A stretch of DNA of 42,505 nt from Deltaproteobacteria bacterium (lineage in GTDB: Bacteria > Myxococcota_A > UBA9042 > DTJE01 > S145-11). Shown here one piece after another: positions 10,255 to 40,930 of the stretch (its first letter is position 1; each line of letters starts with the position of its first letter). The translations under genes and the position numbers were made by a program. Location: NCBI GenBank assembly GCA_015493765.1, contig WGCQ01000248.1, positions 1 to 42,505 on the forward strand. The letters are read 5' to 3'. The notes beneath the pieces are model-generated. The model was not told the origin of the DNA and searched no databases. It saw only the letters and a list, made by a program, of their open reading frames with translations.

Positions 10255-10279
10255 CCCGAATTTAGTCAGGTAATTCGGG
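10255..10279 (+). promoter_or_regulatory. Promoter-associated dyad, copy 1
   Basis: CCCGAATT TAGTCAGGT AATTCGGG, perfect 8-bp arms, upstream of GatE-like gene. Confidence 0.65.
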
Positions 10280-10327
10280 TCAATACCCTCATATCGAAAA
10301 AAATCCAAAATATGTTACCATCAAGCG

Positions 10328-11968
10328 ATGTTTGAACACGTGATCAAATCGCAACATCTTCCGGATTTCCTGTGGAGCGAGGAAGAATACGAGTCGCTGG
10401 GCGTCAGGATCGAGTTGAAGGTACGCAGGCAGGTGGACAGGGGCGGCAAACTGCTGTGCAATTGCCCTGTCATGCCCCCGGACAGTGATTACGACGTGGA
10501 GGTATCCCGGCATCTGCGTCCGGCGGCTTACCACGGGGCAGGGCCTGCATCCATGCCCATGGCCGAAACCCGGTGTTTCCGCGAGGTGATTTATCGATTG
10601 ACCAGGAAAAGCTCGTGCACTTACGAAATGGACGACTCACCGCCGGTCAGAATAAACCGGGATGCATTGGCCGCTACAATTACAGTAGCCCGTTCAATGG
10701 GTTGTATCCTGCCTGAACAGTCCCAGATCATGCGGGAACGTTTTTTGGACGGCTCAATACCTTCCGGTTTCCAGCGCTCCATGCTGATTGGGTGGAATTG
10801 CAGCCTTCCGTTTCTAAAAAAATTATTGAACATTCAACGTGTTACATTGACAGAAGACTCGGCCAGGCTGGTCGAGGACTCCATGACCCGACGCGTGTTT
10901 ATGACGGATCGCCTGGGCGTGCCCGTGCTGGTCATAACCACTGCTCCTGAACTGCGCAATCCTGCACAGGCAGCGGCCGCCGCAACACTGCTGCGCATGG
11001 TAACCTCAAGGACACCGGGTGCCATGCACCGGCAATCGGCACTGAGGTTTGACCTGGGAATTGGCATCCGGGGGGCCGGTTTCGTGGAGGTCAGGGGGCT
11101 TGACAGCATCAATACACTGGTCCGTGTTGCCCATTACGAAGTCCTCCGTCAGAAACGCATGCTGGACCTGTCCGCGGAGGTCAACAGGCGGGGGATAGAT
11201 ATGCAACGCTTTGCCAGTCAGGACGTTACCCGGTGGTTCAAGAGCCTGAAAAAAACGCCACAGGACGTGGTTTACGCGGTGTTACTGCCTGGATTCAGGG
11301 GGCTCATGCGCCAGGCCATGGGTCCGAACCGCGAATTATTGGATGAATTCGTGGACCGGGTCCATCGTATTGCATGCCTGCCCCAAAACATGGTGCTATG
11401 CTCGGAGGGACCGGAGGACTTCGTGTTGTCCGAAGTATTTGCAAAGGCTGACAGACTGATGCAATCACGGCGTTCTGACGTCATCTTTTTACTCGTTGGC
11501 CCCGAGGAGTCGGTAAAATGGGGCGTAACGGCCTTGACTGAACAGGCGCGTGTGTTAACAGACGGCGGCAGCCCGGAGGTACGGCGTCCCTTGCGTAACG
11601 GTGAGACCACATTTCTTATGCCTGATACGGACAGCAGTTTGAGGCTGCCTGAAACCGACATGCCCGCGGTCCCCCTGCACAGCGACCTCAACACCATAGA
11701 CATGCCCTGGCAGATCGCAAGGGACATGCAGGCGCATGGGCTTTCCGCACAGCAGATCCGTGCCCTGATTGCAAAAAGGGCCGAGCATGTATTCAACCGC
11801 ATGTGCAACCTGGGCTACCAGCCGACACTCGCAGCCCAGTTGACCCTGCAATTCTGGAAACCGGAACTGGAAACGGCACTGATCGAGGCGGCAAAAGAGG
11901 CCTTGAATACATATTCAGAACCGTTACAACAAAAGGCCTTCATCAAGGGGAGGCTGAAGCATGGTTGA
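10328..11968 (+). CDS. gatE: Archaeal-type Glu-tRNA(Gln) amidotransferase subunit E-like (GatE family, divergent)
   Basis: Co-linear GatB/E landmarks: KLLCNCPVMP, RHLRP, YEMDDSPPVRINRDAL, FLDGSIPSGFQRSMLIG, DRLGVPVLVITTAPEL, SALRFDLGIGIRG, LPGFRGLM, SPEVRRPLRNGETTFLMPDT, LPETDMPAV. Confidence 0.85.
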   Translation: MFEHVIKSQHLPDFLWSEEEYESLGVRIELKVRRQVDRGGKLLCNCPVMPPDSDYDVEVSRHLRPAAYHGAGPASMPMAETRCFREVIYRLTRKSSCTYEMDDSPPVRINRDALAATITVARSMGCILPEQSQIMRERFLDGSIPSGFQRSMLIGWNCSLPFLKKLLNIQRVTLTEDSARLVEDSMTRRVFMTDRLGVPVLVITTAPELRNPAQAAAAATLLRMVTSRTPGAMHRQSALRFDLGIGIRGAGFVEVRGLDSINTLVRVAHYEVLRQKRMLDLSAEVNRRGIDMQRFASQDVTRWFKSLKKTPQDVVYAVLLPGFRGLMRQAMGPNRELLDEFVDRVHRIACLPQNMVLCSEGPEDFVLSEVFAKADRLMQSRRSDVIFLLVGPEESVKWGVTALTEQARVLTDGGSPEVRRPLRNGETTFLMPDTDSSLRLPETDMPAVPLHSDLNTIDMPWQIARDMQAHGLSAQQIRALIAKRAEHVFNRMCNLGYQPTLAAQLTLQFWKPELETALIEAAKEALNTYSEPLQQKAFIKGRLKHG

Positions 11969-13331
11969 TGCCGAGTACACCGGTAATATCGGGAACCTGT
12001 TTCGCAAACTGGGAATCCACGCGGGCGACCCAATCGAGTTGGATGTTGATGGCCGCAGGTTTGCCTGTGTCGTGTTGCCAGCCCATGGCCTGGCCGACAT
12101 GGTACGCCTCCGCATGCCGGATGGCTATATCATCGGCATTGAATGGCAACGCATAAAAAATGTACGGAAACTGGAGGCCTCAAGCCGCCAGGTTGCAACA
12201 GCAAACCAGCCGGTACCGCCTGCCCCAACCGGGCCTGACGTGGTGTTACTGGCAACCGGTGGTACGATTGCAGGCAGGCCTGACCCGGTTACGGGGGGCC
12301 TGGTCGCTGGCCGAGGTGCATCAGAACTCTATGCCCTGGTGCCCGAGCTGGCCGGACTTGCAAGGCTCAAAATGATAGACCTGTTCAGCGTCCTGTCCGA
12401 AAACATGCAACCGGCACACTGGGTGCGTATTGCCAGGGCGGTGCTGGAGGCGATCGACAGCGGGGCCCGTGGCGTCGTGGTGTCTCATGGGACGGATACC
12501 CTGCATTACACGGCCTCTGCACTTTCCTTCATGATTCAAAACCCACCGGTGCCAATCGTGCTGGTGGGCAGCCAGAAGTCCATCGACCGCCCGTCATCGG
12601 ATGCCGCATTGAACCTGATACATGCCGTGCAGGTGGCGTCAACTTCAGATATAGCAGAGGTCGTGGTGACCATGTTCGGCCCTACCAGCGACCAGTACGG
12701 CATCATCCACCGGGGGACCCGGGTCCGCAAGATGCATACATCGGCACGTTCCACCTTCAGGACCATTGGTGATGTGCCCTTGGGACTCGTGGATCACAAT
12801 GGAATCCGGATGTTACGCACTGATTACGCCAGGGTCGGTCAGACCCCACCGGTTCAACCCAGGATCGGTGTTTGCGACCGGGCTGCACTGCTGTATTACC
12901 ACCCTGGCATGTCACCTGAGGTTATCGATTTTTACGCAGCCAGCAAATTTCGGGGCCTGGTAATGGCCGGTACGGGCATGGGGCATTGCAGCGACGATGT
13001 GATTAATGGCTTAAAGCGGGCCGTGGACCAGGGATTGCAAGTCTTTATGACATCACAGACCTTGTGGGGTACAACAAATCCCTATGCCTACCAGACCGGT
13101 CGCCGCCTGATCGATGCAGGTGTCACCTTCCTGGCCAACATGCTGCCGGAAACCGCACTGGCGAAATTGTACTGGGCCCTGTCCCAAACCAAAGACCCCG
13201 AATCAGTCACCGCGTTGATGACTCAAAACATTGCAAACGAAATCGTACCGAGGGAACCACCGGACGGCTATCTGGTTTACCAGGGGGGAATACCTGAAGT
13301 GGCTGAATTCTTGCGAAAGGAACGCCTGTAA
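11961..13331 (+). CDS. gatD: GatD-like asparaginase-type subunit of Glu-tRNA(Gln) amidotransferase
   Basis: N-term GatD-like domain (GDPIELDVDGRRFACVVLP ... IGIEWQRI); ATGGTIAGRPDPVTGGLVAG; SHGTDTLHYTASALSFM; GSQKSIDRPSSDAALNL; HRGTRVRKMHTSARSTF. Confidence 0.93.
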   Translation: MVDAEYTGNIGNLFRKLGIHAGDPIELDVDGRRFACVVLPAHGLADMVRLRMPDGYIIGIEWQRIKNVRKLEASSRQVATANQPVPPAPTGPDVVLLATGGTIAGRPDPVTGGLVAGRGASELYALVPELAGLARLKMIDLFSVLSENMQPAHWVRIARAVLEAIDSGARGVVVSHGTDTLHYTASALSFMIQNPPVPIVLVGSQKSIDRPSSDAALNLIHAVQVASTSDIAEVVVTMFGPTSDQYGIIHRGTRVRKMHTSARSTFRTIGDVPLGLVDHNGIRMLRTDYARVGQTPPVQPRIGVCDRAALLYYHPGMSPEVIDFYAASKFRGLVMAGTGMGHCSDDVINGLKRAVDQGLQVFMTSQTLWGTTNPYAYQTGRRLIDAGVTFLANMLPETALAKLYWALSQTKDPESVTALMTQNIANEIVPREPPDGYLVYQGGIPEVAEFLRKERL

Positions 13332-13757
13332 TCAGGCAGGCTCGAAACCCACCAGTTCGATGTCGAATGTCAGCGTGTGTCCAGCAAGCGGATGATTTGC
13401 ATCCAGGGTTGCCGTATCACCATTGATTTCGACCACGGACAGGATGATCTGCTGCCCCTGGATCTCACCGGACAACAGGTCGCCCACCTGCACACCTTTC
13501 GGCAGGTCAGATACGGGTACTGATTGTTCCAGTCCGGCCACCCTGTCGCCATAGGCCTCCCCCGGGCTAAGGGTGATCGTCTTTTTATCCCCTACGGCCA
13601 TGCCGATCACACCATTACTGATGCCAGCCAGGATTTCATCGGTCCCAGCCTCGAACTCCAAGGGTTCGTCCTTTTCCGATTTATCAAAAATCGTCTTGTC
13701 TTCCAATAGTCCAACGTACTGTATGCTGACCTTGTCGCCTTTTTTTACCGTGTCCAT
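13332..13757 (-). CDS. FKBP-type peptidyl-prolyl isomerase (SlyD-like)
   Basis: VKKGDKVSIQYVGLLEDKTIFDKSEKDEPLEFEAGTDEILAGISNGVIGMAVGDKKTITLSPGEAYGDR. Confidence 0.92.
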   Translation of the reverse strand: MDTVKKGDKVSIQYVGLLEDKTIFDKSEKDEPLEFEAGTDEILAGISNGVIGMAVGDKKTITLSPGEAYGDRVAGLEQSVPVSDLPKGVQVGDLLSGEIQGQQIILSVVEINGDTATLDANHPLAGHTLTFDIELVGFEPA

Positions 13758-13886
13758 TAATTACTCCCAAGTCAAGTTATGTCGAGGAATTTGCGGAGAC
13801 AGTAACCAGCAAAGGCCAGGCACACTCCACCCCAACAGGTTTAAGTTAATCAAAATTCAATATGTTTGTCAATACCCAAATTATCT

Positions 13887-13911
13887 CCCAAATTACCTGA
13901 CTAAATCCATA
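13887..13911 (-). promoter_or_regulatory. Promoter-associated dyad, copy 2 (upstream of FKBP gene)
   Basis: Minus strand TATGGATT TAGTCAGGT AATTTGGG, followed by a second AATTTGGG then TTGACA(17)TTAACT. Confidence 0.6.
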
Positions 13912-13944
13912 GATTTATTACTTACCAAAAAATTTTTATTTCGA

Positions 13945-14018
13945 TGAGCTCGGTGGGAATCGAACCCACAACCGACGGATTAAGAGTCCGGTGCTCTACC
14001 TAATTGAGCTACGAGCCC
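13945..14018 (-). tRNA. tRNA-Lys(CTT)
   Basis: Cloverleaf: acceptor GGGCTCG/CGAGCTC, anticodon loop CTCTTAA, T arm GGTTCGATTCC. Confidence 0.93.
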
Positions 14019-14072
14019 ACAATACAAGGTTGATCGTCAGGCAGGCCTGCCACTACCGGCAGTAACTACCGG

Positions 14073-14147
14073 GGTGAGTAGAGGGACTTGAACCCTCAAC
14101 CCCCGGGACCACAACCCGGTGCTCTGACCAATTGAGCTATACTCACC
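14073..14147 (-). tRNA. tRNA-His(GTG)
   Basis: G-1:C73 extended acceptor GGTGAGTA/TACTCACC, anticodon loop TTGTGGT. Confidence 0.93.
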
Positions 14148-14170
14148 ATTTCAACCCGCCGCGGACCTCG

Positions 14171-14244
14171 TACGCCTGAGAGGATTCGAACCTCCGACCT
14201 GCGGATTAGAAGTCCGCTGCTCTATCCAACTGAGCTACAGGCGC
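14171..14244 (-). tRNA. tRNA-Arg(TCT)
   Basis: Cloverleaf with anticodon loop CTTCTAA, T arm GGTTCGAATCC. Confidence 0.93.
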
Positions 14245-14270
14245 CTTTCCAAAGAACCGCAACGGACATC

Positions 14271-14333
14271 TTAATACAATGTCGTATGCTGAATGTCAAG
14301 ACCCTGCTCCCAAATTACCTGACCAAATTCGGT
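14271..14333 (-). promoter_or_regulatory. tRNA operon promoter with dyad, copy 3
   Basis: Minus strand ACCGAATT TGGTCAGGT AATTTGGG (14333-14309), then TTGACA (14299-14294), 17-nt spacer, TATTAA (14276-14271), upstream of tRNA-Arg. Confidence 0.75.
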
Positions 14334-14370
14334 AGTCTGTTGCAGCAAACGGCCTTGCCTGCCGGTTTTT

Positions 14371-14500
14371 CCGTTGGCCGTGACCGTGGCCGTTGACCGT
14401 GGCCGTGGCCGTGACCGTTGACCGTTGGCCGTTGTCCGTGACCGTGTGGATCGTGGTAGTAACGAAGGCCATGGAGCGCAGGCGGCCTCGCCTGCTTGTA
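14371..14500. repeat. Intergenic mosaic repeat, locus B
   Basis: ccgttggccgtgaccgtggccgttgaccgtggccgtggccgtgaccgttgaccgttggcc followed by ggagcgcaggcggcctcgcctgctt. Confidence 0.8.
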
Positions 14501-14657
14501 ACCCAGGCGGCTCGCCTGGTCGTGGTGACCGTGAGAGTTGATTTAATGAAAATTATCGGGTCGTAGGGGCAGACCTATGAGCCTGTCCTGGGATTGCAAC
14601 GTGAAAAATTCTATAACAACTTGAAAATAAAAATATTTTTATGATACCCGTAAGCCA

Positions 14658-15857
14658 TTACAGGTCCGTCCCGTAAGGCAGGACCACACTGACCATAGTT
14701 CCTTCGCCCTTTTTACTGTGAATATCCAGGAAACCACCGTGTGCCTTGATGACTGCATCCACCATGTACATTCCCATGCCCAGGCCGCTGGATTCCTTGG
14801 TAGAAAACAGGGGCTCCACAACATGTTGAAGGACTTCCTCGTCCATACCAATTCCATTGTCCTTTACCGTTATATTAAGCCACCCATCCTTTGCAGCGGC
14901 TTCGATAAGTATTTGGTCATGCGGTTTGGTGGCGTCGATTGCATTGTTGATAATGTTTACAAGTGCCTGTATGACCCTCTGGCGGTCAAGTATGACCGGT
15001 GGTAAATCAGCCCCTGTCCGCAGTTTTATATCACGCAGCCGGCCCTCCTTGTTCAGCCGGGCCAGTTTTACCGCATCCTGAAGCAATGCACGCACATTCG
15101 TTTCTTTTTTGTAAAGTCGCCCCACCACTCCATTATTACGAATCAAAGCCATTATATCCTGCAAGGTCCTGTGCAGGCTCTCGAGACCTTGTATACTCAG
15201 CTCAAAAATGTCATGCAGGTCCTTTGTGCAATCCAGGCGTTGCAGTTCCTGTCCGATAAACATCAAACTGGACAGGGCATTACCCATTTCGTGGACGATA
15301 CCAGACGTCATTCGTCCCACCGTGCTAAAGCGCTCGGCCTGTATAAACCGGTGTTGCATCTGTTGGAGTTCCAGGTTTTTCTGTTCCAGGGAATCGATTT
15401 TGTGGTCCAGTTTCCCGACCAGTTGACGGATTGCCCTGGCATACATGGTCCTTTCCATGGCCTCCCGTACCGCAGCGAGTAATTGAGGCGTATCCAGGGG
15501 TTTTATCAGAAATTTGAATGCATTACCCTGGTTGATCGCATCCATGATCGCCTGGTACTCCGTGAACGCAGTGACCACGATGCCGGTTATGTCACGATCA
15601 AGTTGATTTATCCTGTCCAGTAACTGAACTCCGGTCATACCAGGCATCCTCTGGTCAACGATCACCACATCGCAATCCTTGCTCTTTAGTGTCTCGTAAG
15701 CCTCCTGGCCCGAATTCGCAGTCAACACCTTGAAATATTTGCCCATAAAAAGGCTCATTACCTCCACGTTTTCTATTTCGTCATCTACCACCATAACCGT
15801 GTTACTGACGAGCCCGGAAATCTGGTATTTTCTTATGAGTTCTTCGATCTTCATCAT
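14658..15857 (-). CDS. Response regulator receiver-histidine kinase hybrid
   Basis: N-term receiver VMVVDDEIENVEVM ... VIVDQRMPGMTGVQLL; C-term IVHEMGNALSSL H-box, DNGIGMDEEVLQHVVEPLFSTKESSGLGMGM ATPase. Confidence 0.92.
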   Translation of the reverse strand: MMKIEELIRKYQISGLVSNTVMVVDDEIENVEVMSLFMGKYFKVLTANSGQEAYETLKSKDCDVVIVDQRMPGMTGVQLLDRINQLDRDITGIVVTAFTEYQAIMDAINQGNAFKFLIKPLDTPQLLAAVREAMERTMYARAIRQLVGKLDHKIDSLEQKNLELQQMQHRFIQAERFSTVGRMTSGIVHEMGNALSSLMFIGQELQRLDCTKDLHDIFELSIQGLESLHRTLQDIMALIRNNGVVGRLYKKETNVRALLQDAVKLARLNKEGRLRDIKLRTGADLPPVILDRQRVIQALVNIINNAIDATKPHDQILIEAAAKDGWLNITVKDNGIGMDEEVLQHVVEPLFSTKESSGLGMGMYMVDAVIKAHGGFLDIHSKKGEGTMVSVVLPYGTDL

Positions 15858-15918
15858 GGGAAGTTTAATTTGTTTTTGGAAAAAAGCAAGGTAAAAAATA
15901 AGAACGAGTAATATTTAT

Positions 15919-15966
15919 GCTAAATTTAGTCAGGTAATTGCAATGTCTCCAAAGGGGAGATAAAAT
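15919..15966 (+). promoter_or_regulatory. Promoter-associated dyad copy 4 plus predicted promoter
   Basis: AAATT TAGTCAGGT AATT; overlapping TTGCAA (15938-15943), 17-nt spacer, TAAAAT (15961-15966). Confidence 0.6.
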
Positions 15967-15980
15967 CCTTCCGGGGTGTT

Positions 15981-17045
15981 ATGTTCGATAGTATATCCGT
16001 TTTGGCAGGGGACCGGGCCTTTGAAATCATAAAGGACGAGGGACTGGACCTGGCCAGGGTAAAAGTGTTTGCCGGGGCATCCGGTGCGGCAAAATTTCTA
16101 ATACTTACAGGTATCGACCGTGTGCTGATGCCATTACTGAAACACAGGAAAGACCCTTTACACCTCATCGGCAGTTCAATCGGGGCATTTCGGATGGCGG
16201 CCTATGCCCACAAGGAGCCCATAAAGGCAATAAATACCATGGAATACGGCTATATCCACCAGTTTTATCCATCCAAACGACCGGGCAAAGACGCCATTAC
16301 GGATAAATCCATAGAGATTATGAATTCCTATATCAAGGACGGAGATATTGACTATATTTTGAACAATCCGGACATGACAATTTCTTTTCTGGCTGCCAAA
16401 TCCAGGCACCTCGCAAAATCTGAAAACAACATCATGCAAACACTTAATCTTGCTGTCGCAGCCACTGCAAATTACATTAACAGGAGGTATCTGGGTTACT
16501 TTTTCGAAAGGGCAGTGTTCAGTTCCGTCAATGACATAAACTTCCGGTTCAGCGATACATTCAGAACACACAGGTACTTGCTAACCAAGGAAAATTTCAA
16601 AAAGGCCCTCATGGCATCCGGTTCCATTCCCGTTATGATGCGTGGTGTCCCGGATATCGCTGGTGCGCCCGGGATGTTCAGGGACGGAGGGATGATCGAT
16701 TATCACCTGGATATACCATTCCTGGATGACCGGGACAGGGACCGGCTGGTGTTGTTTCCACATTTTTACGAATACGTAATCCCAGGCTGGCTCGACAAAT
16801 ATACGAACAGGAGGGCGCGGGTCGAGAACCTCAAAAACACCGTGATAATCGCTCCATCAAGGGATTTTGTACATTCACTGCCGTATCACAAGATACCTGA
16901 CCGAAAGGATTTCAACAGGCTTTCGGATGAGGAAAGGGTACGGTATTGGAACACGGTGGTGAATAAAAACCATCAATTGGGTGATGAACTGCACGAGGCA
17001 ATCGAATCGGGCAGGATCAGGAAAATCGTCAAGAAAATTCAGTAA
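15981..17045 (+). CDS. Patatin-like phospholipase family protein
   Basis: GASGAAKF oxyanion-like segment, GSSIGAF (GxSxG), FRDGGMIDYH (DGG) motif. Confidence 0.78.
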   Translation: MFDSISVLAGDRAFEIIKDEGLDLARVKVFAGASGAAKFLILTGIDRVLMPLLKHRKDPLHLIGSSIGAFRMAAYAHKEPIKAINTMEYGYIHQFYPSKRPGKDAITDKSIEIMNSYIKDGDIDYILNNPDMTISFLAAKSRHLAKSENNIMQTLNLAVAATANYINRRYLGYFFERAVFSSVNDINFRFSDTFRTHRYLLTKENFKKALMASGSIPVMMRGVPDIAGAPGMFRDGGMIDYHLDIPFLDDRDRDRLVLFPHFYEYVIPGWLDKYTNRRARVENLKNTVIIAPSRDFVHSLPYHKIPDRKDFNRLSDEERVRYWNTVVNKNHQLGDELHEAIESGRIRKIVKKIQ

Positions 17046-17150
17046 ACGACAAGGGACAAGAATACATGTAATGCCTGGCGGCCTTTTTGTGTGCTTCAAC
17101 CGCCATACGTGTATTTGGACAAGTATCCATAAATTTGGAATAATACCACT

Positions 17151-19170: not shown

Positions 19171-19214
19171 GCGTTCACTTGACCCGATCTCCACCGTTGT
19201 CAATGTTATATGGC

Positions 19215-20048
19215 TCATAATCCGCACGCGGAACCACAGTTATCCTGATAGCAATTCTGGATGTCTTGTATCCCATTGACAGCAGACTGGTATTGCTGGA
19301 CACATTGTTTTAAGCAGTCCTGATCATCTTTGCAGTCCTCGATGCATAGTAGCAATTTTACGCATTCCAGGTTCTTATAGCAGGCGGCCAACGGGTTATA
19401 ACACTTATTAGTGATACATTCGGAACAAGGATCGGGCTTAGAGTTTTTACAAGGAATTGTACAATATCTGTCCACACACAGTTGCAAGAGCATGAAATCG
19501 CCAGCACTATCCAGGTTTTCTTTCATACAATCATTATTGCAGGATGTCTCATTAGGCGGGCAATTCCGGACACACATCGAAATCTCGGTGCATCCGGGGT
19601 CAGGCTGGCACGCACGTATCTCAGAGGGGCAGTTATCCGTTACGCAGGATTGGCAAACTTCGGTAGTTCCACCGTTGTCTATCCCGCTGTCGATGCCCAC
19701 GCCCAGGTCAAAAATCACGGCTGTATCACCGTCATTGCCCGTATCCACGCCCGGATCAGAAGTCACGGTGCTATCAGTACCAGGGTCCGGGTCCACGCCC
19801 AGGTCAAAAATCTCGGTGCTATCAGCACCAGGGCCCGGGTCCACGCCCGGGTCAAAAATCACGGCTGTATCACCGTCACTGCCCGTATCCACGCTCATGT
19901 CCGCGTCTGTGTTCGTATCACCACCATTTTTATCCGTGCCAGCAAACGAATCCTTCTGACCTGGTGCGTTAACCACAAAAGTGCTGCATCCTGCTGTCAC
20001 CATAAGTATGAAGATACCCTCGACTATCAAAAGTATTGTTCGTTTCAC
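19215..20048 (-). CDS. Cys-rich lipoprotein with Asp/Pro/Gly tandem repeats
   Basis: Lipobox region MVTAGCS; 16-aa repeats (DPGVDxGxDGDTAVIF); C-term with many paired Cys. Confidence 0.85.
   Translation of the reverse strand: MKRTILLIVEGIFILMVTAGCSTFVVNAPGQKDSFAGTDKNGGDTNTDADMSVDTGSDGDTAVIFDPGVDPGPGADSTEIFDLGVDPDPGTDSTVTSDPGVDTGNDGDTAVIFDLGVGIDSGIDNGGTTEVCQSCVTDNCPSEIRACQPDPGCTEISMCVRNCPPNETSCNNDCMKENLDSAGDFMLLQLCVDRYCTIPCKNSKPDPCSECITNKCYNPLAACYKNLECVKLLLCIEDCKDDQDCLKQCVQQYQSAVNGIQDIQNCYQDNCGSACGL
19698..19889. repeat. Four 48-bp in-frame tandem repeats
   Basis: cacgcccaggtcaaaaatcacggctgtatcaccgtcattgcccgtatc and three variants in A-B-B-A order. Confidence 0.88.
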
Positions 20049-20070
20049 CCCTGCCTCCTTCTATTTTAAG

Positions 20071-20139
20071 GATAAGCCAGAATTGCCTGTTTTTGTCAAG
20101 TCCAGCCACAAAATCCCAAATTACCTGTCAAATTTGAGG
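20071..20139 (-). promoter_or_regulatory. Promoter-associated dyad copy 5 plus predicted promoter of lipoprotein gene
   Basis: Minus strand CCTCAAAT TTGACAGGT AATTTGGG (20139-20115), TTGACA (20099-20094), 17-nt spacer, CTTATC. Confidence 0.6.
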
Positions 20140-20178
20140 ACAAAGGTTGCAGAAAGTGGTTTAGATGCAAGTCGTTGA

Positions 20179-20227
20179 ACCAATTTGAGCGCAGGCGTAC
20201 TATCGGTACGTTGAGCCTCAAATTGGT
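20179..20227. repeat. Nested inverted repeat between divergent promoters
   Basis: ACCAATTTGAG ... CGTAC TATCG GTACG ... CTCAAATTGGT. Confidence 0.75.
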
Positions 20228-20267
20228 GAAAACGGCGAAGCAGATGGGCCGCTTGCTGCAACCGACT

Positions 20268-20335
20268 CCCGAATTTAGTCAGGTAATTTGGGAAAAACCC
20301 AAATTCGTTGACTTATCCGGTGTTTTTGTTAAATT
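20268..20335 (+). promoter_or_regulatory. Promoter-associated dyad copy 6 plus ileS promoter
   Basis: CCCGAATT TAGTCAGGT AATTTGGG (20268-20292), TTGACT (20308-20313), 16-nt spacer, TAAATT (20330-20335). Confidence 0.7.
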
Positions 20336-20353
20336 GTTGCGGGTTTTATACCC

Positions 20354-23155
20354 ATGACAAAACGAGGAGGCATTGTGGGTACCACGAATTACAAGGATAC
20401 GCTGAAACTGCCGAAAACCGCATTCCCGATGAAGGCCAACCTGCCCAAACGTGAGCCTGACATGCTGCGTTGGTGGGAAGAACACGACATCTACCACAAA
20501 ATGGTGGAGCACCGTGACGGGGCGCCGCGTTATATCATGCACGACGGTCCGCCCTATGCAAACGGACACATACACCACGGCCATATCCTGAACAAGGTGC
20601 TCAAGGACATCGTGGTGAAATACAAAAACATGTCCGGTTTCAGTGCGCCCTTCGTGCCTGGCTGGGACTGCCATGGCCTGCCCATCGAGCGGACCGTGGA
20701 GGACAACCTGTCCAAGGCCGGTGTACATGCCACGCCTCAACAATTACGCAAAAAGTGCAGGACCTTCGCCGCGGAGTTCGTCGGCATACAGAAAGAGGAA
20801 TTCAAGCGCCTGGGCGTGCTGGCGGACTGGGACGACCCGTATTTGACCATGAATTATCACTACGAGGCCCGAATAGCACGCGAATTCGGCACCTTTGTGG
20901 CAAAGGACCTGGTTTACCAGGGGCAAAAACCCGTGTACTGGTGTCCTGTGTGCAAGACCGCCCTGGCCGAGGCCGAGGTCGAATACAAGGACGTGAAGAG
21001 CCCGTCGATCTACGTAAAATTTCCGTTCACCCGGGACGTGTACGAACGTTTTCCCAAACTAAAGGGCAAAAACGGGTTCGTGGTGATATGGACAACCACT
21101 CCGTGGACCCTGCCGTCAAACCTGGCTATCAGTCTGCACCCGGACTTTACCTACGTGGCCGAGCAAGTGGGTGACGAGGTGTTGATCCTGGCCGAGGACC
21201 TGACCGCCGGTTTCCACCAGGCAACTGGCGTGCCAACGGGCGAGGTGTTGATGCGGGCAAAGGGCAAGGAATTCGAGGGCCTGCATTGCCGCCACCCGTT
21301 TCTGGACCAGGATTCCCTGTTGATCGTGGGCGAACATGTAACCCTGGATGCGGGCACGGGCTGTGTGCATACGGCCCCGGGTCACGGCCAGGAGGACTAC
21401 GAGGTGGGCATCAGGTACGGACTTAAGCCCTACGCACCCGTGGACGAGGAAGGCCGGTTTACCAGGGACGTGCCCATGTTCGAGGGCAGGTTCGTATTCG
21501 ATTGTGACAAGGACGTGATCGCCCTGCTAAAGGAACGGGACATGTTGATCAAGGCCTCCCAGGTGGAACACTCGTATCCCCATTGTTGGCGCAGCCACGA
21601 CCCGGTAATTTTCAGGGCAACGCCGCAGTGGTTCATCGGCGTGGACCGCAAGAACCTGCGCCAGGACGCCATTTCCGCGATCCAGGACGTAAAATTCATA
21701 CCGCCGCAGGGCAAGACCAGGCTCACCGCCATGCTGGAGGGCCGGCCTGACTGGTGCATATCCCGCCAGCGCCACTGGGGCGTGCCAATCATTGCATTCA
21801 AGTGCAAGACGTGCGGACACACGCTGCTGGATGCGTCAGTCGTGGCACACGTGGCCGATATATTCGAGGAACACAGCGCGGATGCCTGGTTCGAGATGTC
21901 CGAGGCCGAACTGCTGCCTGCGGGCACGAAGTGTCCCGAGTGCGGTGGCACGGCCTTTGAAAAGGACTCGGCGATCCTGGATGTCTGGTTTGATTCCGGG
22001 GTCAGCCATGCAGCGGTGGTGAAGCGTCGCTACGGCGCGGATGCACGGGCCGATTTGTACCTGGAAGGCAGCGACCAGCACCGGGGATGGTTCCAGTCCA
22101 GCCTGCTGGCATCCGTAGGCGCCAGGGGCGAGGCCCCGTATAAATCCGTGGTCACGCATGGCTTCGTGGTGGATGGCGAGGGCAAGAAACTGTCCAAGAG
22201 CGCCAGGAATTTCGTGGCCCCGCAAAAGACGATTGACCGCCAGGGTGCCGAGATCTTCCGGCTGTGGGTGGCGGCGGAAAACTACAAGGAAGACATCCGT
22301 ATATCGGACCAGATCCTGCGCACACTGGTGGATTCATACAGGAAATTCCGCAACACGTTCAGGTTCATGCTGGGCAACCTGGGGGATTTTGACCCGTCCA
22401 GGGACATGGTGCCGGACGGGGAACTGCTGCCCGTGGACCGTTATGCGCTGGCGAATTTCGGCAGGCTTGTGCAGAGGGTGCTGGATGCATACGATGCGTT
22501 CGATTTGCACGTGATCTACCAGAACCTGGTGAATTATACATTCACCGAATTGTCGGCCTTCTACCTGGACATCACCAAGGACAGGTTGTATTGCGAGGCC
22601 GGTGCGTCGCCAAAGAGGCGCTCCGCCCAGACCGGCTTGTACAGGATCCTGCGCGGCATGCTGTTGATGCTGGCGCCTGTGCTATCGTTTACAGCGGAGG
22701 AGGCATACCAGCAAATGCCCAAACTGCCCGAGGCACCGGAAAGCATATTTTTGTGCGACATGGTGAGGCCGCAGGACTTCCCGGTGGACGAACAGTTGGA
22801 CTCAAAATTCGGGCTCCTGCGCGAGGTCAGGACAAGGGTGCTGGCCGTACTGGAACAGGCCCGTGGAGACGGACAAATCGGTCACCCGCTGGAGGCATCG
22901 ATCGCACTGAAGGCACGCAAGGGTTCCCCTTACCTGTCCGTGCTGCACGAATTCGGGGCGTTTCTGCCGGAGCTGTTCGTTGTGAGCGCCGTGACGGTTG
23001 AGGAATTCGATGGCCCGGATGCCTTTGACGTGGCATTCGCACATGCGCCTGGTGGCAAGTGCCAGCGGTGCTGGAATTATTCCACCACGGTAGGGTCAGA
23101 CCCCGATTTCCCTGATGTCTGTGCACGGTGTGCAGGCGTGTTGAGGCAGGAATGA
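20354..23155 (+). CDS. ileS: Isoleucyl-tRNA synthetase
   Basis: HDGPPYANGHIHHGH, DWDDPYLTM, KLSKSARNF (KMSKS-like), C-term CxxC ... CxxC zinc site. Confidence 0.97.
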   Translation: MTKRGGIVGTTNYKDTLKLPKTAFPMKANLPKREPDMLRWWEEHDIYHKMVEHRDGAPRYIMHDGPPYANGHIHHGHILNKVLKDIVVKYKNMSGFSAPFVPGWDCHGLPIERTVEDNLSKAGVHATPQQLRKKCRTFAAEFVGIQKEEFKRLGVLADWDDPYLTMNYHYEARIAREFGTFVAKDLVYQGQKPVYWCPVCKTALAEAEVEYKDVKSPSIYVKFPFTRDVYERFPKLKGKNGFVVIWTTTPWTLPSNLAISLHPDFTYVAEQVGDEVLILAEDLTAGFHQATGVPTGEVLMRAKGKEFEGLHCRHPFLDQDSLLIVGEHVTLDAGTGCVHTAPGHGQEDYEVGIRYGLKPYAPVDEEGRFTRDVPMFEGRFVFDCDKDVIALLKERDMLIKASQVEHSYPHCWRSHDPVIFRATPQWFIGVDRKNLRQDAISAIQDVKFIPPQGKTRLTAMLEGRPDWCISRQRHWGVPIIAFKCKTCGHTLLDASVVAHVADIFEEHSADAWFEMSEAELLPAGTKCPECGGTAFEKDSAILDVWFDSGVSHAAVVKRRYGADARADLYLEGSDQHRGWFQSSLLASVGARGEAPYKSVVTHGFVVDGEGKKLSKSARNFVAPQKTIDRQGAEIFRLWVAAENYKEDIRISDQILRTLVDSYRKFRNTFRFMLGNLGDFDPSRDMVPDGELLPVDRYALANFGRLVQRVLDAYDAFDLHVIYQNLVNYTFTELSAFYLDITKDRLYCEAGASPKRRSAQTGLYRILRGMLLMLAPVLSFTAEEAYQQMPKLPEAPESIFLCDMVRPQDFPVDEQLDSKFGLLREVRTRVLAVLEQARGDGQIGHPLEASIALKARKGSPYLSVLHEFGAFLPELFVVSAVTVEEFDGPDAFDVAFAHAPGGKCQRCWNYSTTVGSDPDFPDVCARCAGVLRQE

Positions 23156-24054: not shown

Positions 24055-24082
24055 GAAACGGCAAGGTAATTCGTGGCCACAT

Positions 24083-29390: not shown

Positions 29391-29590
29391 CGCCTCCTGC
29401 GAACGAAAAGCCACGCCTTACTTTACATTGCCCTGGAAAAGGGATCAACCGTGAATTTCACTCGAGGAATCTTCGATACAGGTTATTTTTAGAACACGTT
29501 CTTTATCTAACCGTTACAAAATCAAGGGTCAAAATCAGCAATTCTGACAAAACGCATGTACCTGAAATTACCATCAAATCAACACCCTAC

Positions 29591-29727
29591 GGCCGCCTGT
29601 GCTCCACGGCTTTCGTTTTCACCGGGATCACACGGCCACGGTCAACGGCCACGGTCTCGGCCAACAGTCACGGAAAAGGCCGGCAGGATGCCGGCACCAC
29701 ACGGTCACGGCCACGGTCTCGGTCACG
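29591..29727. repeat. Intergenic mosaic repeat, locus C (inverted orientation)
   Basis: 45-nt module 29591-29635 is 44/45 identical (reverse complement) to 10037-10081; hexamers and CCGGCAGGATGCCGG palindrome. Confidence 0.85.
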
Positions 29728-29763
29728 AAAAGGCGGGCGAGGACGGAAAGCCGCAAGGGACTT

Positions 29764-30789: not shown

Positions 30790-30802
30790 TGTATTCCTCC
30801 TG

Positions 30803-32923: not shown

Positions 32924-32981
32924 ACCCCGGTCACACTATAAATAAGAAGGATGATTTATTCAAGTTCGAATGTAGAGCCCG

Positions 32982-33040
32982 CCTGCCGAATTTGGGAGAT
33001 AGATTCCGAACTTGTTACAACGAATCCTTTGCGGTACAAT
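32982..33040 (+). promoter_or_regulatory. Predicted promoter with degenerate dyad half-site
   Basis: CCGAATTTGGGAGATAG then TTGTTA (33012-33017), 17-nt spacer, TACAAT (33035-33040). Confidence 0.5.
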
Positions 33041-33053
33041 GCGCTGGGAGTGC

Positions 33054-34520: not shown

Positions 34521-35884
34521 TCGTCCCTGTGACCACTGCCAGCAGGGCTGCATTCAAGGATGTACTTGCACGGCTGCCCTTCCTGGAGTTGGAACTACAG
34601 GGTACACCGTGGCTTGACAGGACAAGGGCCATGGAATTGGCGGGCGACTGTTTTGCCTGGTTTTACAGCGACCGGCAGCAGGTGGAACTCGGCGACCACG
34701 TGCCACTGGCCGGGGCAGCCGCAGCGGCATTACTGGCCCAGCCCGCGCTGTTGTCCGCAAGGGCCTTGACCAGGGGCGACAAGATGGTTTCAACCGCAGC
34801 ACTGAGGGAATTGTGGGCGGCATTAAACCGGCTGTTTCCACTGTTGGGTACAATGCAGGGCAGTGATGGTGAAAGTAGCGGCACCGGTTCGGGTGATGCA
34901 TTCGGCGGCGAATCCGAGGATGCGGTGGGCCAGGCTGGTGCGGAGGTTGCACAGAAGGTCATGGATACATCGGAGACGTTGAAGGATGCCGCCATGGTGA
35001 TCCCTGCCACCGGGTGGGACCTCAGCAAGGGGAAAATGGTTCGCATCCGGTTGGAAGATATACGGAACGTGGCAGAACTGGTACAGCAAAAGGCCTGGTT
35101 GAAGGCGTTGATCGCGGTGTTGGGCCGGATTGAGGAACTGGGTGCCGTATGGAATCCCCTGCCTGCGACCATGTCCAAGGGTGAGATCCACAGTGTTGGA
35201 CGCGGAGGGGATGTGGAAAACATGCTACCATCGGAGGCCATGCTGTTGCTGGGCCCTGCAACCAGGACCCTGTTTTTTGCCCGGCTTTACGAACGTTCAC
35301 TGCTGGCATACACAATGAAGGCAACGGCCAGGGAGGGCGGGGACAACCCGGGTGGTCCCATGATTGCACTGGTCGATACCAGCGGGTCCATGAAGGGACA
35401 AACCGAGATCGTGGCAAAGGGATTCGTTCTGGCTGCGGCCAGGTTGGCAAGGCTGCAAAATCGCAGGTTTTTGCTGGGGATATTCGGTTCCAAGGACGAG
35501 TACAAGGAATTCGAACTGGTGGGTAAAAATACGAATCCCGGGGAATTTCTGCGATTTCTGGCGTGGTCGTTTCATGGGGGGACAGACATCAATGGTCCGA
35601 TTAACCGGGTATGTGCGAAGATCGTGCAGGAGGGGTGGGAGGCGGCCGATTGCCTGGTAATCACGGACGGCATGGCCCTGCCTTCGGCCCATACAAAGGC
35701 CGTGGTGGATGCGGTACGCAAGCAGTTCAACACGTTTTTCATGGGGGTCATTGTTGGCAAGGCCAGGGCAAGAGGCCTGGACGGGTTGCTGGATTTCAGC
35801 GTGTTCACGGATGGCGATGACATAGAGGGGCTTGGTGAGGCTGTCAGGGCACTAAAAAAAAGGTTCCGGTCACAGGCCCTGTGA
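34517..35884 (+). CDS. VWA-domain protein (ViaA-like partner of the MoxR ATPase)
   Basis: ALVDTSGSMKG MIDAS motif near C-terminus; coupled to MoxR gene by ATGA overlap. Confidence 0.9.
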   Translation: MIVPVTTASRAAFKDVLARLPFLELELQGTPWLDRTRAMELAGDCFAWFYSDRQQVELGDHVPLAGAAAAALLAQPALLSARALTRGDKMVSTAALRELWAALNRLFPLLGTMQGSDGESSGTGSGDAFGGESEDAVGQAGAEVAQKVMDTSETLKDAAMVIPATGWDLSKGKMVRIRLEDIRNVAELVQQKAWLKALIAVLGRIEELGAVWNPLPATMSKGEIHSVGRGGDVENMLPSEAMLLLGPATRTLFFARLYERSLLAYTMKATAREGGDNPGGPMIALVDTSGSMKGQTEIVAKGFVLAAARLARLQNRRFLLGIFGSKDEYKEFELVGKNTNPGEFLRFLAWSFHGGTDINGPINRVCAKIVQEGWEAADCLVITDGMALPSAHTKAVVDAVRKQFNTFFMGVIVGKARARGLDGLLDFSVFTDGDDIEGLGEAVRALKKRFRSQAL

Positions 35885-35886
35885 TT

Positions 35887-37344
35887 CTATACGGCCCTGG
35901 CCACAACCAGGAATGACACCCCGGCAAAACGTCCAAGCATGCGTTCTATGGCGATTATAGCAGGTGACAACCATTGATATATATGCAACTGGCCTGTCGG
36001 CAGTTTGCCTCTGCCCAGTACGCGACCATTCAAAAACCAACCCGGAAGGCCCATGAAATTGAACGGCCTGAACAGTTCGATTTGAAACCCGGTATCCTTG
36101 AACAGGGCCTCCAACTGGTCCCTTTCGTAGCGCCTGTAATGCCCGAGGTTTTTATCCAGGTCCGAGTATAAGGCCTGGTGGGCAGGCACCAGCAGGATCA
36201 GACGCCCCTGTCCTTTTTTCAGCAATCTATGCATGTTTTTCATGCCCCGGACATCATCCCGGACATGCTCCAGGACGTTCAGACATACGGCACTATCGAA
36301 CCGGCGGTTTTGAAGGGACTTCGGTATGTCACCACCAAGGTCGAAATACTCTGCGGAAAAACCATACACCTCACCGAATCGCGTGGACAGATATGCAAGT
36401 GCATCCCTGTCGATATCCGTGGCCGTGACCTCCGTAACACCTGTAAGGTACTTCGTGATGTTACCCGTGCCCGCACCTGTCTCCAGGGTTTGTTCCCCCA
36501 GATACGGCCTGAAGGTCTCGAACATGTACCTGTTGAAGGATTCCAGTTCTGACATCTTGGCCAGGGTTTCCATGACCACATCGTGATTCAGGATGTTGTT
36601 ATCGAAAAGATTATATTTCACAATATAATACAGTGCATGCAGCCCATCTTTTACCCCGATTTTTTTGCCCTCTGCGTAACCTCTGCCATGGTATGAGATG
36701 GGGACCTCATAGATCCGGTAACCCAGTCGCGCAACCTTGGCCGTGATCTCGGGTTCCAGCCCGAAACCGCTGCTGGTTATGGTAATACCCTTTATTACCT
36801 CGCTGCGAAACGCCTTGTAACAGGTCTCCATATCCGTAAGATTGAGGTCGCTGAAGGCATTGGATAGCGTGGTCAGCACCTTGTTACCCAGCGAATGCCA
36901 GAACATCAGGACCTTGCGTTCTTCGCCCGTGAACCTGCTGCCATATACCACGTCGGCCTTGCCTTCAACGATGGGACGAAACAATTTTGGGTAATCCTGT
37001 GGGTCGTACTCAAGGTCGGCGTCCTGAAACAGGATGATATCACCCGTTGCCTCGGCTACACCCCGTTTGATTGCCGATGCCTTGCCCTCGTTTTGTTCCT
37101 TGTAAACAGGCCTGAACAGCAGTCCATCCAGGTCCTTTTTGCTAATACCGTAGGTACGCAGCGTGCTCACAGGTGCCCTGCTGACTTCGGCCAGCATTTG
37201 CCTGGAACCGTCCGTGGAACCGTCATCCACGGCCAGGACCTCCTTTTCCAACCCCAACGCAGGCGCCTTGAATACCTTGGCCAGCAGGGCCAAAAGGGTA
37301 CGACGTTCATTATACACGGGAATAATTATGCTAACTCTTTTCAT
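35887..37344 (-). CDS. GT2 glycosyltransferase fused to SAM-dependent methyltransferase
   Basis: [37 protein letters not shown]-term [17 protein letters not shown] ... CLNVLEHV. Confidence 0.93.
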
Positions 37345-37350
37345 GTCAGC

Positions 37351-38391
37351 CTAATCCTTTGGGGTTTCTTTTTTACTGACAGACACCCTGTTTCGTCCCA
37401 TTTTTTTCGCCTGGTACATCGCGGCATCCGCCCGGTTATCCAGTTCCTCGGAGGTCTCTTTCCCGTCCCAGGTGGCCACACCTATGGACACGGTTTGCCG
37501 AATTTCCTGGCCATCCGGCAGTTTTATGGTCATCGCGCCAATGGACTCGCGCAGCCTCTCGGCAACAGCCAACGCCTCGTCCTGGTCCGCATGCGGCATG
37601 ATCAGGATAAATTCCTCGCCGCCACGCCTGACCAGTATGTCCTCGCGCCTGACCGAACCGCGCACCATGTCCGCAATCGTCCGCAGCACCACGTCCCCGG
37701 CCGAATGTCCGTACGTATCATTCACACGCTTGAAATGGTCCAGGTCCAAAAACAGCAGGCTCAGGGAAAAGTGATGGCGCCTGGCCTTTTCCATTTCCTC
37801 GTGCATTCTGGGATAGAGGTAGCCCTTGTTATAGGCCTTGGTATTAGGGTCCGTCACCGCCATATGTTTCAGCCGCGCCTTGTCAATGGGTGAAACCGCG
37901 CAGTTTGCCAACAATTGCAACAGCAGTTCATCCTCCTGGTCGAATGCCCCTTTCTTTGTGGACGTAACGCCCAGGACGCCTATTACCTTGCCATTGGAAA
38001 ACAAGGGGGCTGCCATTATCGATGAAATCCTGAACCCCTGTTTTTTTGCCGTGACGAACCGATCGTCCCGTGACGTATCAGGGATATTCACGAGCCTGCC
38101 CATCTCGGCCACCCAGCCCACAACACCTTCACCACGCTGGAAGTGCATGGGCGTGGCCTTATTGCCACGACCTGACCTGGCCCCTGACAACAACTCGTGG
38201 CCGGATTCGTCCAGGACCCTGATCGAGGAATGTTCGCAGGGCAGCAGTTCCAGGGCCGTATCCGTCACCACCTGCAATGCACCGTCCAGTGCCAGGTCCT
38301 CCAGCAGGTACCTTGTCATGGTCCTCAGGGCCTTAAACGCCCGTGCATACCTGGCGAGTTCCTCATTCATGGTATTATTATCCGTGTCCAT
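37351..38391 (-). CDS. GAF-GGDEF diguanylate cyclase
   Basis: GAF-like N-terminus; LDLDHFKRVNDTYGH, RRGGEEF, RxxD (RRED) I-site. Confidence 0.93.
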   Translation of the reverse strand: MDTDNNTMNEELARYARAFKALRTMTRYLLEDLALDGALQVVTDTALELLPCEHSSIRVLDESGHELLSGARSGRGNKATPMHFQRGEGVVGWVAEMGRLVNIPDTSRDDRFVTAKKQGFRISSIMAAPLFSNGKVIGVLGVTSTKKGAFDQEDELLLQLLANCAVSPIDKARLKHMAVTDPNTKAYNKGYLYPRMHEEMEKARRHHFSLSLLFLDLDHFKRVNDTYGHSAGDVVLRTIADMVRGSVRREDILVRRGGEEFILIMPHADQDEALAVAERLRESIGAMTIKLPDGQEIRQTVSIGVATWDGKETSEELDNRADAAMYQAKKMGRNRVSVSKKETPKD

Positions 38392-38402
38392 GATACCCGG
38401 TT

Positions 38403-39161
38403 TTATGGATTATCAGGGTTGTCCGTGCCGAAATGTTCCACCTGCATCAATTCCTCGATATTAGGAACCAGGATGATGTCGATCCTGCGGTTTGCAGCCC
38501 GGCCTTCCGGAGTGTCGTTGGATTCAATCGGTGCATACTGGCCGTAACCGGCTGCACTGATTCGATCCGGTGGCATACCCTCGCCGATCATGAAAAACAC
38601 CACGTTTATGGCCCTGTCCAGTGACAAGCGCCAGTTGAAATCCGGCGAGCCCGTGTTGTCCGTGTGGCCTGCCACCTGGAAATTCCGGTTCTTCATCGCA
38701 GCCAGGATAGGCGTCAATTCCGTGAGCGCCAGTTTGCCCTCGGTGGTCAGTTTGCTTTTGCCCACGTCGAACAGGATTTTTTCGCCCATTTCGATCACCA
38801 GCATGCCCCTGAACGTCCGGATCTTCAGTTTCCCGGCATCCATCAATTTTTTCAGACTGGCCTTCATGGCGTCTATGGCTGCCTGGCGTTTCCTGGCCAT
38901 CTCCTGCAACTCCTGGACCTTGGCCAGGCTTTGCTGCAAACTCGATGACAGTTTCCCCTTTTCGCTGAGCACATCCTGTAACTGCTTGCTCAGGTCCTTG
39001 TTCTGTTGTTCCAGTGTCTGTCGTTTTTGAACCACCTCCGCCTTGGACGTCTCACAAGCCTCCACCTGGTGTTTCAGGTTCTGCATATCCTTTTGGTACA
39101 GGTCCTTGTCGATCCCGCAGGCAACCACGGGTAACAAAAATAACAATATCCAGCGTTTCAT
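38403..39161 (-). CDS. OmpA-family lipoprotein with coiled-coil
   Basis: MKRWILLFLLPVVACG lipobox-like; QVAGHTDNTGSPDFNWRLSLDRAINV ... GYGQYAPIESNDTPEGRAANRRIDI. Confidence 0.92.
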   Translation of the reverse strand: MKRWILLFLLPVVACGIDKDLYQKDMQNLKHQVEACETSKAEVVQKRQTLEQQNKDLSKQLQDVLSEKGKLSSSLQQSLAKVQELQEMARKRQAAIDAMKASLKKLMDAGKLKIRTFRGMLVIEMGEKILFDVGKSKLTTEGKLALTELTPILAAMKNRNFQVAGHTDNTGSPDFNWRLSLDRAINVVFFMIGEGMPPDRISAAGYGQYAPIESNDTPEGRAANRRIDIILVPNIEELMQVEHFGTDNPDNP

Positions 39162-39174
39162 TTGAGCCTCCTCC

Positions 39175-40836
39175 TCACTCCTTGAAAATCAAAGAATACA
39201 GCAGAAGTATAAAGAATCCTGCGGAAAACGCAAACCCACCGACGGTCCAGACATCGTAACCCAGGACTTGCACCCCGTACAATGCCAGTCCGCCGGAGCC
39301 GATGCTCATGAGCCCATAAAGCATGCGCCTGGAATGCAGTGCCTGCGAATGCATCATGGCCTCCAGCGACCCGGACTGGCAGTTCAACTGGATCTCGCCA
39401 CGCCTGAGTTTACGCAGCAATCGCCTGATATCGTACGGCCCGTCCCTGACAAGCCTCAACAGGTTGTTCACCGCCTTGTACGCCTGGGCAGCCTGACGCG
39501 TGGGGTCCGTGAGTCGCTCCGTGTATAGTTTTGTCAGGTAAGGTTTCATGTAGTCGATGGGGTTGAAATCCGGAAAGATCTTGCGACCTATGCCCTCCAG
39601 CGTGGCAACCGCCTTTCCAACCATCATCAAGTCAGCAGGCAGGGACACGTTGTGACGGCCCATCACCTCGTAAATCCGGCCCATGAACTGTCCGGTGTCA
39701 ATCGTACCTATGCTGGCGTTTTTGTATCGCACCAGCAGCCTGCCTATGTCGGTGCGCATGCGTCTAAGGTCAACACCATCCGGCACCAGGTCCAGTTCCA
39801 GCAGCAGGTTCACCATCGCGTCCGTATCGCCCGTGATGATCGACACCATAAAGGCGGCCATGTCATCGATCCTGGCGTCGTCAATCACGCCCATCATGCC
39901 AAAATCGATCAACGCAATGCTGCCGTCATCCTCCACAAAGAAATTTCCGGGGTGCGGGTCCGCATGAAAAAAGCCGAATTCAAATATTGAGCGCATCGTG
40001 ACCCTGAGCCCTGTGTCCAGCACCGCCTTCAGGTCGATTCCCTTTTGTTTCAAGGTAACAACATCGGTCACCTTGGTGCCTTTGACCTCTTCCATGACCA
40101 GCAGCCGACGTGAGCACAAATCCGGAAACGGCCTTGGTATGTGCAGTTGTTCCTCGTCCTTGAAGTTCTCTCGAAACCGTTGGAGGTTTTCCATTTCCCC
40201 GATGAAATCCATTTCCTCGGACAGACTATCCGTGAATTCCTGGATCAATTCCTTGGGTTTGTACCGGCGTACCTCCGGCACCTTTTCCTCGAGCCCTTGC
40301 GCGATAATCGACAACAGCCGCATGTCCGCGGTTACAATGGATTGGGCATCAGGCCTTTGCACCTTCAGCACCACGTCCTGGCCATCCAGCAACACGGCAC
40401 GGTGTACCTGGGCGATCGATGCCGCTGCAATCGGCTGTTCGTCAACCGATTTAAAGACCTCGGGTATGGGACGTCCCAGTTCCGACTCTATGACGACCTT
40501 GATGTGATCGAACGGGACAGGTGGGACCTTGTCCTGTAGTTTTTCCAGTTCCTGAATCAGGCTCATGGGCAGTATATCGGGACGACTGGCCATTACCTGG
40601 CCCAGTTTGATAAACGTGGGGCCCAGTTCCTCCAGCACGACCCTGACCCGACGTTCCATGGGCAGGTGCGACTGCTCGTCCGCCTTGTTTTTTGCCATCC
40701 AGCCCAGCCCCCTGATGCCGGACATACGGTAGGCAACATCCTGAAAACCATGCCTTCCCAGTACACCAAGGATCTGGCGCAGCCGGCGCAATTCCTTGAA
40801 ACGCAAAGGGACCTTAAGCCACCACAAAGCACCCAT
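39175..40836 (-). CDS. AarF/ABC1/UbiB kinase-family protein
   Basis: GPTFIKLGQVMASRPDILP, AAASIAQVHRA, FHADPHPGNFFVEDDGSIALIDFGMMG. Confidence 0.95.
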   Translation of the reverse strand: MGALWWLKVPLRFKELRRLRQILGVLGRHGFQDVAYRMSGIRGLGWMAKNKADEQSHLPMERRVRVVLEELGPTFIKLGQVMASRPDILPMSLIQELEKLQDKVPPVPFDHIKVVIESELGRPIPEVFKSVDEQPIAAASIAQVHRAVLLDGQDVVLKVQRPDAQSIVTADMRLLSIIAQGLEEKVPEVRRYKPKELIQEFTDSLSEEMDFIGEMENLQRFRENFKDEEQLHIPRPFPDLCSRRLLVMEEVKGTKVTDVVTLKQKGIDLKAVLDTGLRVTMRSIFEFGFFHADPHPGNFFVEDDGSIALIDFGMMGVIDDARIDDMAAFMVSIITGDTDAMVNLLLELDLVPDGVDLRRMRTDIGRLLVRYKNASIGTIDTGQFMGRIYEVMGRHNVSLPADLMMVGKAVATLEGIGRKIFPDFNPIDYMKPYLTKLYTERLTDPTRQAAQAYKAVNNLLRLVRDGPYDIRRLLRKLRRGEIQLNCQSGSLEAMMHSQALHSRRMLYGLMSIGSGGLALYGVQVLGYDVWTVGGFAFSAGFFILLLYSLIFKE

Positions 40837-40894
40837 AGAGCACCCCTTATCTGTGTATAAGTGTACAACAAACTGGTCACACGGACAAAAAAAC

Positions 40895-40930
40895 CCCGAA
40901 TTACCTGTCAAAATTGACCGATAATTTGGG
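40895..40930. promoter_or_regulatory. Two overlapping promoter-associated dyads in opposite orientation (copies 7 and 8)
   Basis: CCCGAATTACCTGTCAA (minus) immediately followed by TTGACCGATAATTTGGG (plus), between divergent genes. Confidence 0.65.

Follow-up and report, generated by a model that had tools for sequence, protein, structure and literature searches.

The 25-bp dyad that recurs between the genes of the window (by which we mean the whole analysed stretch of 42,505 nucleotides) is the terminal inverted repeat of a non-autonomous, MITE-like element of about 178 bp. The element belongs to a widespread and new MITE-like family that combines a conserved hairpin with promoter-spaced insertion, and the motif is the end of this family. 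Our best explanation of the data, held with a probability of roughly 0.78, is that a MITE-like hairpin element undergoes promoter-targeted insertion and that its ends are retained as upstream elements. Promoters are throughout consensus matches, i.e. predictions.

The consensus of the motif is CCCRAATTTAGTCAGGTAATTYGGG, with a layout of 8 + 9 + 8 bp. The 3.57-Mb source genome contains 538 copies with at most 3 mismatches and the reversed control gives none, hence the recurring dyad of the original prediction is real. Six sites in the window match the 21-bp core with 0–2 mismatches (10259+, 13887−, 14309−, 20115−, 20272+ and 40895−; 0 in 100 shuffles), and 15919+ and 40906+ are weak members according to the position weight matrix (PWM), with scores of 21–22 of 40. 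Two further positions that had been offered as weaker matches are not sites: 29561(−) has only the GGTAATTT-like core in common, 32982(+) is CCGAATTTGGG without the centre, and both fail the PWM. A motif common to other species or viruses was ruled out, as exact copies were absent both from 84,980 other species and from viral contigs. Among 90 genomes, including the source and its relatives, nine others carry 1–2 copies each, with 3 mismatches where listed.

For a closer analysis we used 60 stretches and the window, i.e. 61 stretches covering 801 kb or 22% of the genome, the first 20 stretches being mostly from contigs that bear exact matches; genes were called using a simple codon-score caller, which missed some of them. 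A PWM score above 16 gave 192 sites in this sample. Classified by their upstream flank, 54 belong to the R repeat family, 47 to the L repeat family, and 91 are solo sites (S), a class with no widely common flank.

The L and R ends pair facing outward and bound 65–266 bp, most commonly exactly 178 bp. There are 39 paired copies in the 801 kb; the covariance model finds 134 copies in the source genome, and loose ends number several hundred. The terminal inverted repeat consists of CCCAAATTACCTG.../...CAGGTAATTTGGG together with the neighbouring bases. Outside the paired ends, the flanking 5 bp resemble each other, which is a mark of transposition: flank identity is 0.574 in the genome's own pairs compared with 0.301 ± 0.034 after shuffling, and 0.557 compared with 0.260 ± 0.027 in relatives from the same order and class, the 4- and 6-bp signals being weaker in both sets. 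The element thus has the hallmarks of a MITE: it is short (178 bp), carries no gene, has inverted ends of 13 bp and longer, and shows a target duplication of constant length (5 bp) in its own and in related genomes. Ends common with an autonomous element of the same genome are usual for MITEs, yet not strictly required. A dif-like site for site-specific recombination, considered because of the asymmetric centre of the motif, was set aside, since the inverted L and R ends and the duplications point to transposition. Longer copies of 205–266 bp (L044, L033, L066, L050, L048 and others) have structured modules, e.g. CTAAGGCCGCAGGCCGTGACAACGAGCCGTCAGGCGAAGTTTCACT, inserted inside the hairpin.

The window holds one intact copy of 178 bp at 20115..20292 (+, left to right end), with paired outward ends and a covariance-model match of 195.5 bits. 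It sits between two divergently transcribed genes, 19215-20048(−) and ileS (20354-23155, +). The best match of the encoded IleRS, in a deltaproteobacterial MAG, reaches no more than 54% identity. The sites at 20115(−) and 20268(+), counted separately in the original prediction, are the two ends of this one copy, a pairing that had been overlooked. The left terminus, CCTCAAATTTGACAGGTAATTTGGG (20115..20139, −), belongs to the L-end repeat family and faces the gene 19215-20048(−); the right terminus, CCCGAATTTAGTCAGGTAATTTGGG (20268..20292, +), belongs to the R-end repeat family and faces ileS. Each is followed by a predicted promoter with its −35 box 15 nt past the end: on the left, 20071..20099 (−), composed of TTGACA (20094-20099), 17 nt and CTTATC (20071-20076); on the right, the predicted ileS promoter at 20308..20335 (+), composed of TTGACT, 16 nt and TAAATT. 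Only three copies have a promoter on both sides, the window element being one of them, and this element lacks a target duplication.

The remaining sites of the window are solo or joined ends. Upstream of the FKBP gene (13332-13757), a solo site at 13887..13911 (−; PWM score 33) is overlapped by a second half-site at 13875-13899 and has TTGACA at 13867-13872, 14 nt beyond. Another one, a core match at 14309..14333 (−) upstream of a tRNA-Arg/His/Lys cluster, has TTGACA at 14294-14299, 9 nt beyond and outside the main spacing peak. The solo 25-bp site at 10255..10279 (+), a match by both core and PWM with unrelated flanks, lies upstream of a GatE-like gene (10328-11968), and a clear −35 box at the usual spacing was not found there. 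The site at 15919..15943 (+) upstream of a patatin-like gene (15981) is a degenerate solo one (PWM score 21). Finally, the paired-site analysis resolved the sites reported at 40895(−) and 40906(+) into a 36-bp palindrome of two joined termini (40895..40930) between an AarF/ABC1 gene (−) and a LuxC-like gene (+); weak −35-like hexamers lie 13 nt past each of its sides, and it has no target duplication. Degenerate GGCCGTGACCGTTGACC tandem repeats (9990-10050 and 14370-14450) adjoin several of the sites. The GatE-like gene (GatB_N) adjoins a GatD-like one (asparaginase, weak GatD_N) at 10328-13331, apparently in a bacterial genome; the GatE/GatD amidotransferase pair is known chiefly from archaea.

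The sigma70-like boxes noticed earlier downstream of several sites proved to lie at a sharply fixed distance. The −35 hexamer starts 13–16 nt past the GGG end with a peak at 14–15 nt, and R, L and S sites behave alike. Such a hexamer follows 49 of the 117 gene-facing ends at 13–16 nt (4.5 expected), about ten times as often as at other offsets; TTG stands at 13–15 nt from 67 of 191 ends compared with 10 after shuffling, and TAnnnT then follows after 16–18 nt in 33 of the 67 (0 of 10 in the shuffled set). In relatives whose ends are unrelated to these, the spacing peaks at 14 nt, where 12 ends fall; 22 of 110 ends lie at 13–15 nt, compared with 0.3 per position in shuffled sequences. As the spacing is the same despite unrelated ends, it is a property of the element family and not of the DNA sequence.

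Several observations bear on how this spacing arose. A promoter is present on one side of 21 of the genome's own copies, on both sides of 3 and on neither side of 12; for related copies the numbers are 20, 0 and 34. About a third of the own copies, and most of the related ones, therefore lack a recognisable promoter at this distance. One-sidedness is expected if a single promoter fixed the point of insertion. Copies with perfect duplications occur at the promoter spacing as often as others (9 of 13 in the source genome and 9 of 19 in relatives), and the near-identical copies of the relative G013 (96% mean identity) already show it. From the one-sided promoters and the spacing of fresh copies we infer target choice near −50. 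In two places (L037 8667-8875 and L077 3821-4028) an element landed beside an existing site, and its new end inherits the −35 spacing of the old one. In the mechanism we propose, a transposase acting in trans, probably a member of the IS1380 family, would insert the element beside sigma70 promoters at about −50. This point would correspond to the upstream limit of the region covered by RNA polymerase, and insertion there would spare both the promoter core and coding DNA. Recognition of the promoter through RNA polymerase, or through the alpha C-terminal domain of the enzyme, is a guess made from position.

The distribution of sites is consistent with such sparing. Coding DNA is nearly free of them, with 5 in 620 kb compared with 1.0–1.8 per intergenic kb. 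The original prediction had made the promoter role depend on scarcity both within genes and in 3' regions: the former is borne out, but convergent intergenic regions are as dense in sites (1.05/kb) as tandem ones (1.03/kb). Similarly, the sites had been described as always oriented in the same way relative to the gene. The bias is real, with 117 facing a gene start and 55 of the 172 a gene end (p = 2.6e-6), but outside the window the rule does not hold.

The element also has a conserved structure. In the window copy, the L-to-R strand forms a fold that spans its whole length (−99 kcal/mol, z −14; −72 for the reverse strand). The L-to-R strand is the more stable one in 34 of 39 own and in all 56 related copies, and in 75 of 77 copies when DNA parameters are used. 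In an alignment of 60 own and related copies, which was fitted to the model and so leans toward structure, compensatory change is seen at 59 of 68 pairs, covariation is 0.44 compared with at most 0.08 for slid partners, and a G-U pair is conserved in 51 of 58 copies. Despite the fitted alignment, the size of the effect and the conserved G-U pair argue for a fold that is maintained, as RNA or as single-stranded DNA. Palindrome correction could contribute to the covariation, but leaves the strand bias unexplained. A known RNA family was ruled out, as Rfam gave zero matches in the window and in related loci.

Of 190 genomes from the phylum, 48 have matches to the covariance models R1 and R2. Related copies have different ends and the same hairpin fold: the ends are CCCAAATTACCTG in the source genome, CCCAAATCCACCG in relatives of the same order, and CCCG[GC]ATTATTCATGA with CTAG flanks in other relatives, and a single genome of the same class carries several end types. 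The length is nearly constant throughout the phylum (174–178 nt in most), and the apical sequence is conserved. Within a partial coverage of the literature, we found neither this element nor insertion at a set spacing from the −35 box described.

As to the mobilising enzyme, IS1380-family elements have ends that start with CC(C) and target duplications of 4–5 bp. Such an insertion sequence (L222), from a genome of the same class, is bounded by CCCGGATAATTCACGA ends with CTAG flanks and matches the CTAG subfamily of our elements, whose ends and targets are like those of an IS1380-family IS (G092, G115, G127, G180, G052 and JAADGT). Another one (L225) has ends CCCCAATCCCGCG and the duplication CCCAA, and the window's subfamily resembles it in general terms only, i.e. 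in CC-rich ends and a 5-bp duplication. An IS1380-type (PF13701) transposase was found neither in the source genome (assembly 96.75% complete, 279 contigs) nor in the closest element-bearing relatives, and so the enzyme is assigned by extension from the other subfamilies: the sequences support IS1380-type mobilisation for the family and suggest it for the window's subfamily. An autonomous copy in the source genome was also sought, but in the 801-kb sample the ends enclose no transposase gene; the checked genes between outward-facing sites are ordinary metabolic ones, and none of the four PF01609 genes of the genome is bounded by motif ends. One copy (L261 192-771) lies a few bases past a fragment of an IS4-type (PF01609) transposase gene.

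The solo sites account for about half of the total (91 of 192). Their identity is about 0.9 over most of the 25 bp and falls to about 0.27 past the adjoining 5 bp; they lack target duplications, and they face genes by 61 to 21. Simple neutral decay does not account for sites with such sharp edges. Since these 25-bp units with unrelated flanks are so numerous, some ends were probably kept as upstream promoter elements. Retention of promoter-facing ends in the source lineage is the likeliest origin, with small joined-end units as the alternative. According to our proposal, many promoter-facing ends would outlive the remainder of the element as putative upstream promoter elements centred near −62, and these survivors would give the dyad the regulator-like appearance that the original prediction had described. 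The alternative holds that the solo sites are minimal mobile units, two joined 8-bp outer ends moved by the same transposase. Short joined-end forms are indeed graded in size (65, 43, 41, 37 and 36 bp), and a sister genome (G014; L185 10412-10560) has three tandem joined-end mini units with two end types and TTGACA boxes flanking both sides, but strong solo sites show at best a faint likeness in their 5-bp flanks (0.323 compared with 0.266 ± 0.028), and we consider this origin unlikely. Random intergenic insertion followed by selection alone, with only those copies kept whose end lies at a distance that helps a promoter, would explain why solo sites are enriched toward genes and keep the spacing. 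It is very improbable, since the near-identical G013 copies and those with perfect duplications are already spaced, and it would implausibly require, in several lineages, tens of separate favourable insertions in each genome.

Two further readings place the function of the sequence before its mobility. A site for a global activator or architectural protein of the host, in a class I position near −62, might have come first and been copied by the ends of the element. The abundance of solo sites agrees with this, as do the 17 right-type ones that match at least 23 of 25 positions with upstream identity at chance, the sharp −35 spacing, the dyad nature of both end types in the source lineage, and the 36-bp double site between divergent promoters at 40895-40930. 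However, related genomes from the same order and class combine unrelated ends with identical spacing, the sister genomes G013 and G008 are nearly without solo sites (2 weak ones vs 29 element ends in 187 kb), and convergent regions are dense in sites; we regard this order of events as quite unlikely. A plain regulatory operator as origin was ruled out by the target duplications, the inverted pairing and the lineage-specific ends. Of the general promoter element proposed originally, the fixed promoter position (14–15 nt before the −35 box) stands, as does the conservation of about half of the sites as solo units, which a promoter element in use would lead one to expect; its origin as a global activator or UP site does not, given the 5-bp duplications, the sites in convergent regions and toward gene ends, and the spacing shared by relatives with other ends. 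A regulatory reading may hold secondarily. It is also conceivable, if rather unlikely, that the repeat is a conserved gene for a structured RNA whose multiplication is incidental, the functional object being the hairpin RNA rather than the DNA ends. The near-constant length, the conserved apical sequence, the strong covariation and the strand asymmetry of nearly all copies fit this, but the copies contain no consistent internal promoter for the hairpin strand, those between tandem gene pairs show no preferred orientation (6 vs 4), their number is high and they come with target duplications, and Rfam knows none of them. The structured-RNA reading is compatible with a transposon, as the element may need its transcript. 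A more ambitious version of the transposon reading, in which ~178-nt transposable hairpins, folded as RNA or single strands, insert throughout the phylum with near base-pair precision about 14 bp before the −35 box, probably guided by polymerase, and have had their ends adopted at hundreds of promoters, seems to us evenly balanced between right and wrong.

Among known systems, the element most resembles the IS1380 family (e.g. ISEcp1) and the MITEs derived from it, in its CC(C) ends and duplication size, and its sister elements carry CCCGGATTATTCATGA-type ends with CTAG flanks, as does L222 in the same class. It differs from them in having no transposase that we could find in the source genome and in the conserved fold of its interior; to the best of our knowledge, precise promoter spacing has been described for no IS1380 member. 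A fold conserved across the phylum in a non-autonomous element raises the question of the role of RNA or a single strand in transposition. Like REP/REPIN and ERIC sequences, the copies are palindromic, intergenic and present by the hundred. REPINs depend on RAYT enzymes for their movement and are not known to leave duplications of this kind, whereas 5-bp duplications and promoter spacing are found here. Correia elements (NEMIS) of Neisseria are likewise small intergenic inverted repeats close to gene starts and affect expression, according to a review (PMC10969869); they carry their own promoters, whereas the two hexamers in our case stand outside the element, at a constant spacing from it. 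The same review describes prokaryotic MITEs near or carrying promoters and, in the passages covered, none that keeps a constant distance to the −35 boxes of its host (PMC10969869). The position of about −50 to −75 from the start is that of class I activator sites and UP elements, from which the sites differ in originating as transposon ends and in a sequence that changes wholly between lineages while the spacing is constant. A genome can thus gain hundreds of identical-looking dyads upstream of promoters without a regulon, which can mislead motif discovery. If true, targeting of promoters with base-pair precision and in step with transcription would be unusual for a bacterial mini-transposon, to our knowledge new, and directly testable. 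Fixed, safe insertion upstream of promoters has a eukaryotic precedent in Ty1 and Ty3, yeast retrotransposons unrelated to the bacterial element, which enter a fixed window before the transcription starts of Pol III genes and spare the genes, although the likeness is one of analogy only.
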